Shown here one piece after another: positions 30,526-32,379 of a stretch of 40,243 bases of DNA (position 1 is its first letter; every line of letters starts with the position of its first letter). Made by a program: the position numbers and the translations under genes. The notes under the pieces are model-generated. The model was not told the DNA's origin, did no database searches, and saw nothing but the letters and a program-made list of their open reading frames with translations. The stretch covers positions 1 to 40,243 of the forward strand of contig NZ_SPHL01000011.1 in assembly GCF_005844425.1 (NCBI RefSeq), written 5' to 3'. The stretch is from Anaerofustis stercorihominis. GTDB lineage: Bacteria > Bacillota > Clostridia > Eubacteriales > Anaerofustaceae.

Positions 30526-32049
30526 TTACATTCCTCTATATTGTAATGCTTCGCTTATATGGGATGAATTTATATTTTCTTCTCCGTCAAGATCTGCTAT
30601 TGTTCGTGCAAGTTTTAAAATTCTATGATAGCCTCTTGCTGATAAATTCAAATTATCAAAAGCCATTTTCATAAGTTTTTCTTCTTCTTCTCCGATTTTG
30701 CACCACTGTTCTATTTTACTTGGAGTTAACATGGAGTTAAAAAGAATGTTAGTTCCTTTATATCGTTTTAGCTGGATTTCTCTTGCTTTATTTACTCTTT
30801 TTCTTATTTGTGCACTTGTTTCTGATTTAGTACTATTTATTCTTAATTTGTCATAGTCTTGTCTTGGAACTTTTACTTGAATGTCTATTCTGTCAAGTAA
30901 AGGTCCTGATATTTTGTTTTTATATCTTTCTTTTTGACTATCTGTGCATTTACATTCTATTTTACTGTCTCCAAGATATCCGCAAGGGCAAGGGTTCATA
31001 CTTGCAAGAAGCATAAAATCAGCAGGATAGGATAGGGAAGCATATACTCTTGAAATATTAACCTCTCCGTCTTCAAGGGGTTGTCTTAAAACTTCTAATA
31101 CTTTCTTTTGAAATTCTGGAAATTCATCTAAAAATAATACTCCAAGATGTGCAAGGCTTACTTCTCCCGGAATTGGTATTCTTCCTCCTCCAATTAAAGA
31201 TACATCTGATATTGTATGATGAGGACTTCTAAATGGTCTTGTTTTTATTAGTGGTTCATCTTTCTTTAAAAGTCCTGATACAGAATATATTTTTGTAACT
31301 TCCAAACTTTCTTCTAATGTCATTTTAGGAAGAATAGTTGAAAATCTTTTTGCAAGCATTGTTTTTCCGCTTCCTGGAGGTCCTATCATAAGAATGTTAT
31401 GTGCTCCCGCAGCTGCTATTTCCATTGCTCTTTTAACGCTTTCTTGTCCTTTTACATCTGCAAAATCAACTTCTGATAATATATCATCATTTTCAAAATA
31501 ATTATTGTTAAATTCTATCTTGTTTATTGGTTTTCTGTTATTAATATGAGAAACTACTTCTAAAATATTTCTTGCGGGATAAACATTTATACCATCTATA
31601 ATTGAAGCTTCTTTTGCGTTTTCAACAGGAACTACAATATTTGTTATTCCGTTATTTTTTGCTTCCATAACCATTGGAAGAACTCCATCTACTCCTCGAA
31701 GTGTTCCATCCAGTGAAAGTTCTCCGATAAATAAATACTTATTTAAATCAATATTTGAAAAAATCTGTGTTGAAGAAAGAAGTATACCAATTGCTATTGG
31801 TAAATCATAAAACGTTCCTTCTTTTTTTATATTTGCAGGTGCTAAGTTTATTGTTATTTTACCAAGTGGTATTTGGAAAGAACTGTTTTTTATTGCTGCA
31901 AAAACTCTTTCTTTTGATTCCTTAACTGCAATATCTCCAAGTCCAACAACAGCCATTGAAGGAAGGGCTTTGTTAATGATATCTGTTTCAACGCTTACGA
32001 TTATTCCGTCAACTCCCATAATGCTTCCTGAATATAATTTACTAAACAT
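30526..32049 (-). CDS. comM: ComM/YifB-like AAA+ ATPase (Mg-chelatase-like)
   Basis: Protein of 507 aa in the YifB/ComM family. ComM of Vibrio is a hexameric helicase that promotes branch migration during natural transformation. Seen: N-terminal Lon-protease-like ChlI domain (about 20-140, PSMAVVGLGDIAVKESKERV); Walker A GPPGSGKT at 223-230; RSPHHTISDVSLIGGG near 274; Walker B LFLDEF at 305-310; a Cys cluster NPCPCGYLGDSKIECKC (Cys354, Cys356, Cys366, Cys368) that may bind zinc; SGPLLDRIDI near 381; and a C-terminal domain with LSARGYHRILKLARTIADLDG near 471. In many Bacillota it sits next to dprA, but not here. Its promoter contains a LexA-like palindrome. Confidence 0.93.
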   Translation of the reverse strand: MFSKLYSGSIMGVDGIIVSVETDIINKALPSMAVVGLGDIAVKESKERVFAAIKNSSFQIPLGKITINLAPANIKKEGTFYDLPIAIGILLSSTQIFSNIDLNKYLFIGELSLDGTLRGVDGVLPMVMEAKNNGITNIVVPVENAKEASIIDGINVYPARNILEVVSHINNRKPINKIEFNNNYFENDDILSEVDFADVKGQESVKRAMEIAAAGAHNILMIGPPGSGKTMLAKRFSTILPKMTLEESLEVTKIYSVSGLLKKDEPLIKTRPFRSPHHTISDVSLIGGGRIPIPGEVSLAHLGVLFLDEFPEFQKKVLEVLRQPLEDGEVNISRVYASLSYPADFMLLASMNPCPCGYLGDSKIECKCTDSQKERYKNKISGPLLDRIDIQVKVPRQDYDKLRINSTKSETSAQIRKRVNKAREIQLKRYKGTNILFNSMLTPSKIEQWCKIGEEEEKLMKMAFDNLNLSARGYHRILKLARTIADLDGEENINSSHISEALQYRGM

Positions 32050-32081
32050 GTTTATTACCTCTATATTATTTCTTTTATTTA

Positions 32082-32110
32082 ATATTAGTAGAACATATGT
32101 TCATTGTCAA
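32082..32110 (-). promoter_or_regulatory. Sigma-A promoter of comM
   Basis: On the minus strand TTGACA (32105-32110), 17-base spacer, TAATAT (32082-32087). The start site should be near 32075, giving a 25-base leader with GAGGT before the comM ATG. The spacer is almost entirely occupied by the LexA-type palindrome listed separately. Confidence 0.8.
32091..32102. promoter_or_regulatory. LexA (DinR)-type SOS box in the comM promoter
   Basis: GAACATATGTTC is a perfect 12-base palindrome and fits the Bacillota LexA/DinR consensus GAAC-N4-GTTC. It sits between the -35 and -10 of the comM promoter, where a bound repressor would block RNA polymerase. The lexA gene is not in the window, so operation by LexA is inferred. 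Confidence 0.75.
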
Positions 32111-32125
32111 TAATATGAGAGTATC

Positions 32126-32143
32126 TGGTCACTTTTTGGTCAC
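32126..32143. repeat. Tandem TGGTCAC direct repeat, 11-base period
   Basis: TGGTCAC occurs at 32126-32132 and 32137-32143, each followed by a T-rich stretch, about 16 bases upstream of the comM -35 box and 17 bases before the rpmF terminator stem. The spacing is one helical turn, which would place both copies on the same DNA face. It may be a binding site or a remnant of a mobile element end. Confidence 0.45.
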
Positions 32144-32159
32144 ATTTTTTAATAAATAA

Positions 32160-32187
32160 AAAACACTGTACCTTAGTACAGTGTTTT
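32160..32187 (-). terminator. Intrinsic terminator after rpmF
   Basis: AAAACACTGTAC (32160-32171) and GTACAGTGTTTT (32176-32187) form a perfect 12-bp stem with a 4-base loop, 12 bases after the rpmF stop; on the minus strand a T-rich tract follows. Confidence 0.85.
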
Positions 32188-32199
32188 AATTTATCTTTA

Positions 32200-32379
32200 T
32201 TATTCAACATCAATAACAGTTACATCTTTATATGTTCCGCAAACGCTACATACTCTGTGAGGAGCTTTTACTTCTCCACATTTTGGACAAACGCTAGATG
32301 CAGGCATAGCGATTTTATAACTGTTAGCTCTTTTTTTGTCTCTTCTTGCTTTAGAAATTTTTCTCTTTGGTACTGCCAT
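32200..32379 (-). CDS. rpmF: 50S ribosomal protein L32 (zinc-ribbon form)
   Basis: Small gene of 59 codons. The protein begins MAVPKRKISKARRDKKRA, the L32 signature, continues with SYKIAMPASSV, and carries a zinc ribbon with Cys31, Cys34, Cys44 and Cys47 (CPKC and CSVC). All four cysteines are present, so it is the zinc-binding form rather than the Cys-less paralogue used under zinc limitation. AGGAGG lies 9-10 bases upstream and overlaps the stop codon of the DUF177 gene, so the two are translationally coupled. It is followed by an intrinsic terminator. Confidence 0.97.
   Translation of the reverse strand: MAVPKRKISKARRDKKRANSYKIAMPASSVCPKCGEVKAPHRVCSVCGTYKDVTVIDVE

Follow-up and report, generated by a model that had tools for sequence, protein, structure and literature searches.

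It is highly probable that the comM/yifB gene of the window (the whole stretch of 40,243 nt analysed here) belongs to the SOS response. In this joint reading, the comM promoter holds a true LexA operator in the form of a 12-bp palindrome, comM is derepressed as an SOS gene, and ComM is probably a repair helicase. The region comprises the following features:

30526..32049, minus strand: comM/yifB, YifB-family Mg-chelatase-like AAA+ ATPase of 507 aa (ORF, Pfam, TIGR00368, structure match)
32057..32062, minus strand: AGAGGT, likely ribosome-binding site of comM (sequence reading)
32082..32087, minus strand: -10 hexamer TAATAT (promoter scan)
32091..32102, no strand: predicted LexA operator of the Bacillota type, GAACATATGTTC (sequence and pattern; conserved in genomes G001 and G002)
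32105..32110, minus strand: -35 hexamer TTGACA (promoter scan)
32127..32143, minus strand: GTGACCAAAAAGTGACC, a pair of GTGAC repeats with 11-bp periodicity, placed 16 nt before the -35 hexamer
32160..32187, minus strand: intrinsic terminator of rpmF (scan, 0.1 expected)
32200..32379, minus strand: rpmF (L32), upstream neighbour of comM (ORF MAVPKRKISKARRDKKRAN..., assigned by inspection)

Through sequence reading and a pattern scan, we found that the palindrome at 32091-32102 matches GAACN4GTTC, the Bacillota-type LexA site, exactly. The order on the minus strand is TTGACA (32110-32105), AT, GAACATATGTTC, TAC and TAATAT (32087-32082), so the palindrome is located inside an exact 17-nt spacer between the -35 and -10 hexamers; the initial annotation had described both the position and the spacer correctly. 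In the promoter scan, this hexamer pair scored highest in the region as a sigma-70-like promoter (10/12). Because the terminator at 32187-32160 lies between comM and rpmF, comM has its own promoter, a single one set apart from rpmF by this strong intrinsic terminator. The pattern GAACNNNNGTTC matched the window exactly once, at 32091-32102, against a chance expectation of 0.25 matches on average and at least one match in 24 of 100 shuffles. A single operator match in 40 kb is therefore unremarkable, and the comM operator is significant because of its promoter position and conservation, not because of the bare match.

The comM/yifB gene starts at 32049 on the minus strand, behind a good ribosome-binding site. 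The protein contains the Pfam domains ChlI, Mg_chelatase and Mg_chelatase_C, and it matched the solved ComM structure 8rxd over its full length (E 7e-131); the Walker A (GPPGSGK) and Walker B (LFLDE) motifs are invariant in the comM proteins. It scored 635 bits against the broader model TIGR00368 (cut-off 362) and 443 bits against the NCBI equivalog NF007365, below the cut-off of 530, and was therefore filed only as a member of the YifB/ComM family. Such proteins occur in 181 of 207 good-quality Clostridia genomes, although a recent paper stated that Firmicutes notably lack ComM (PMC11612176). A second, divergent gene of this family (L161-L167) is also present in some genomes of the order, mostly in genus g10, and its product is 47-49% identical to the window protein.

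The genus was represented by the window's genome G000 (2.03 Mb, 85 contigs, rated 100% complete) and two further genomes, G001 and G002. From gene content, a role of ComM in recombinational repair is likelier than damage-induced transformation, because we found no ComGA/PilB-type (T2SSE) secretion ATPase over the family cut-off in G000. The alternative, in which LexA control of comM serves competence and more imported DNA is integrated after damage, has the LexA step in common with the repair reading and differs in purpose. It could draw on comEC and dprA, which are present in all three genus genomes, and on the GTGAC element common to comM and dprA; however, besides the missing motor in G000, only one such ATPase (353 aa) was found in G001 and G002, and dprA has no perfect LexA operator. 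We consider this alternative improbable. The stress laid on natural transformation by the initial annotation thus agrees with the presence of comEC and dprA, but it is weak in view of the ATPase result.

In both G001 and G002, GAACGAATGTTC occupies the comM promoter spacer, at a distance of 51 nt from the start codon. All eight half-site bases of the operator are kept and two of the four inner bases differ, and the rest of the 150-bp comM upstream region shows only 50-52% identity. When the comM upstream regions of 173 Clostridia genomes were compared, a perfect palindrome within 120 bp before comM was found in four, three of them from this genus and the fourth, G026, from another family of the same order; 11 permuted control palindromes at the same distance gave 0 or 1 match each and one match in total. 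The box of G026 is not firm support, because lexA was not detected in this draft genome (93% complete), and the independent support is small, because the positive genomes, with the exception of one in four, have a common ancestry. G023 has a one-mismatch site before comM, the other genera of the family have no perfect comM box, and among the matches listed in the comM alignment scan, which came from distant phyla and served as a remote control, none had a perfect box before comM. With the box in 4/173 genomes, three of them in the genus, the comM-LexA wiring is lineage-specific; it is confined to a small lineage and is probably a gain in the genus.

That GAACATATGTTC plays no part in LexA control and is merely incidental to the AT-rich promoter might be argued from the 24% of shuffled windows that hold such a match and from the genome-wide count of GAACN4GTTC in G000, which is lower than that of its reversed control (7 vs 11). 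We regard this as very unlikely, because the palindrome keeps the same promoter position in 3/3 genus genomes with all half-site bases retained and inner bases changed, permuted palindromes hardly ever occur before comM, and the non-coding sites are concentrated before SOS genes.

Other motifs were observed upstream of comM. In family f10, a AAACAAATGTTC-like stretch close to the start of comM was rejected as LexA evidence, as it looks like a hairpin loop region; the comM leaders of this family (L263, L301, L308, L315, L317 and L331) show a recurring CTCC...GGAGG hairpin with a AAACAAATGTTC-like loop, and this CCTCC/GGAGG hairpin could sequester the comM ribosome-binding site. Five genomes of the family (L012, L013, L025, L034 and L122) have the sequence TTCGACA, which resembles a Spo0A box in reverse, in the DNA upstream of comM.

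Seven GAACN4GTTC sites exist in the 2.03 Mb of G000. Two are coding, one in a nitroreductase-like gene and one in rplB, and the five non-coding sites precede the divergent lexA/yneA pair, uvrB, a radical-SAM gene of the Rv2578c type, a prophage-like locus and comM. The non-coding perfect sites of G001 and G002 precede dinB, uvrB, lexA/yneA and comM, and the other matches are coding, save that of the radical-SAM gene in G002, which lies just upstream of a likely start; two ORF calls with a beginning ahead of the probable start were interpreted manually, and the match of locus L136 in G001 was kept as coding. The radical-SAM gene with the perfect operator (L005:1501, G000:C36:3126; L129 in G002) may encode an SOS-controlled enzyme. 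recA carries the one-letter variant GAACAAATGTTT (GAACN4GTTT) in all three genus genomes, as does dinB of G000; LexA of C. difficile uses this form at recA and lexA (PMC4234289).

The LexA protein of G000 is an equivalog match (TIGR00498, 231 bits), GAACTTTTGTTC and GAACATAAGTTT are located upstream of its gene, and recA is also present. In 16 genomes of the order, lexA carries GAACN4GTTY-type boxes or one-mismatch versions. The initial annotation had tied its LexA reading to conservation of the palindrome in relatives and to the presence of lexA in the genome; in both other genus genomes the palindrome was found to occupy an unchanged place in the promoter, and lexA was found carrying its own operators. 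It is very unlikely that the palindrome serves a different repressor with a similar site, for instance a CI-like S24 repressor of a prophage: G000 does contain two further S24-peptidase repressors, one adjoining a GAACGTATGTTC site, but palindromes of this type stand before lexA, uvrB, recA and dinB in the genus and before lexA across the order, as expected of LexA, and the genus has conserved the comM site, which would not be expected of a prophage.

Considering the position of the operator, its conservation in the genus, the presence of lexA and recA, and the company of SOS genes, direct repression of comM by LexA is very likely. We infer LexA binding, comM induction and the repair role of ComM as parts of the best explanation. 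In the undamaged cell, a LexA dimer would occupy the comM promoter between the -35 and -10 hexamers and block RNA polymerase. Upon DNA damage, RecA bound to single-stranded DNA would trigger the self-cleavage of LexA, and comM would be derepressed along with recA, uvrB, dinB, lexA/yneA and the radical-SAM gene. ComM, a hexameric AAA+ ATPase of the YifB family, would then probably drive branch migration as a helicase during RecA-dependent repair. The ComM helicase is thus probably made upon DNA damage in this small genus of gut-type Clostridia, so that a protein studied mostly for its part in natural transformation would join the DNA-damage response in one lineage of Clostridia; the predicted LexA control of comM suggests a repair role for the YifB/ComM proteins of Clostridia.

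A second promoter element was an unexpected find. The element GTGACYAAAAWGTGACC lies exactly 16 nt upstream of the comM -35 hexamer, and the sequence GTGACCAAAAAGTGACC (32143-32127, minus strand) is 16/17 identical in G001 and G002. In the same register, the element also precedes dprA, a DUF6809 gene and loci that resemble type I toxins (32127-32143 on the minus strand; L179/L214, L182, L187, L189, L193, L196, L199 and L201), and in 11/11 tabulated promoters the distance from the end of the 17-mer to the -35 hexamer is 16 nt. The pattern GTGACN6GTGAC is found three times in each of G000, G001 and G002, against 0, 1 and 0 for its control, and the three copies of G000 are all in promoters, those of comM, dprA and the DUF6809 gene. 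In G001 and G002, the DUF6809 gene is preceded by the element with one or two mismatches and dprA by a degenerate form of 22 bp; at four further loci of G002 there are near-copies, and three of these loci encode a 27-residue hydrophobic peptide. As the pattern at up to three mismatches is not enriched over its control, only close promoter matches (0-2 mismatches, same register) were used as evidence, and the degenerate dprA form was not counted.

The promoters of these three G002 loci (L187, L193 and L201) contain the GTGAC element and the LexA-like GAACAAAYATTC, a one-mismatch site over the -35 hexamer, a two-part design like that of comM. The loci encode MKIDYVLIIKVLILLFEIAAAILSFFI or a near-identical peptide, with an apparent convergent antisense unit, similar to type I toxin-antitoxin systems. 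Separately, TTGACAAAAAAGTGACT, with a partial likeness to the GTGAC element, was found before an operon of an XRE regulator and an ImmA/IrrE peptidase in 3/3 genus genomes (L206, L195 and L211); these matches were left out of the GTGAC-element count.

The GTGAC element, with direct repeats 11 bp apart at this distance, resembles the sites of OmpR/PhoB-type activators and is a probable activator-binding site. We might tentatively speculate that the comM promoter is a two-input switch, with LexA in the spacer and an activator on the 11-bp GTGAC repeats upstream of the -35 hexamer, in a small recombination and stress regulon of comM, dprA, the DUF6809 gene and the type-I-toxin-like peptides. If true, this would be a new regulon through which these Clostridia link recombination to DNA damage, and the upstream element common to dprA and comM gives a handle on their regulation.

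The ComM of structure 8rxd, a Gram-negative transformation helicase, belongs to the same family as the window protein over the full length, and a 2024 structural paper described ComM as exclusively involved in transformation where tested (PMC11612176); in contrast, the uptake motor was not found in the window's genome, and its comM is under predicted LexA control. The LexA/DinR regulon of Bacillota (GAACN4GTTC in B. subtilis; C. difficile, PMC4234289) has the same operator sequence and promoter overlap as found here, and lexA, recA and uvrB are members in common with this genus. The text on the C. difficile regulon contains neither comM nor the words "chelatase" or "competence" (PMC4234289), and our literature search found no paper reporting SOS-regulated comM in Bacillota. 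The initial annotation did not count comM among the standard SOS genes; comM has an SOS precedent, however, being reported as SOS-regulated under LexA in Caulobacter crescentus (PMC3323433), as predicted here, and it is listed among the alphaproteobacterial core SOS proteins (PMC6473078). Caulobacter crescentus belongs to the Alphaproteobacteria and the window's genus to the Clostridia. Because the alphaproteobacterial LexA reads a different operator, the two comM-LexA wirings are probably convergent, and the Clostridia case would be independent of the alphaproteobacterial one. With such wiring already on record for Caulobacter, the comM operator of this genus is a convincing but modest addition to the known network.
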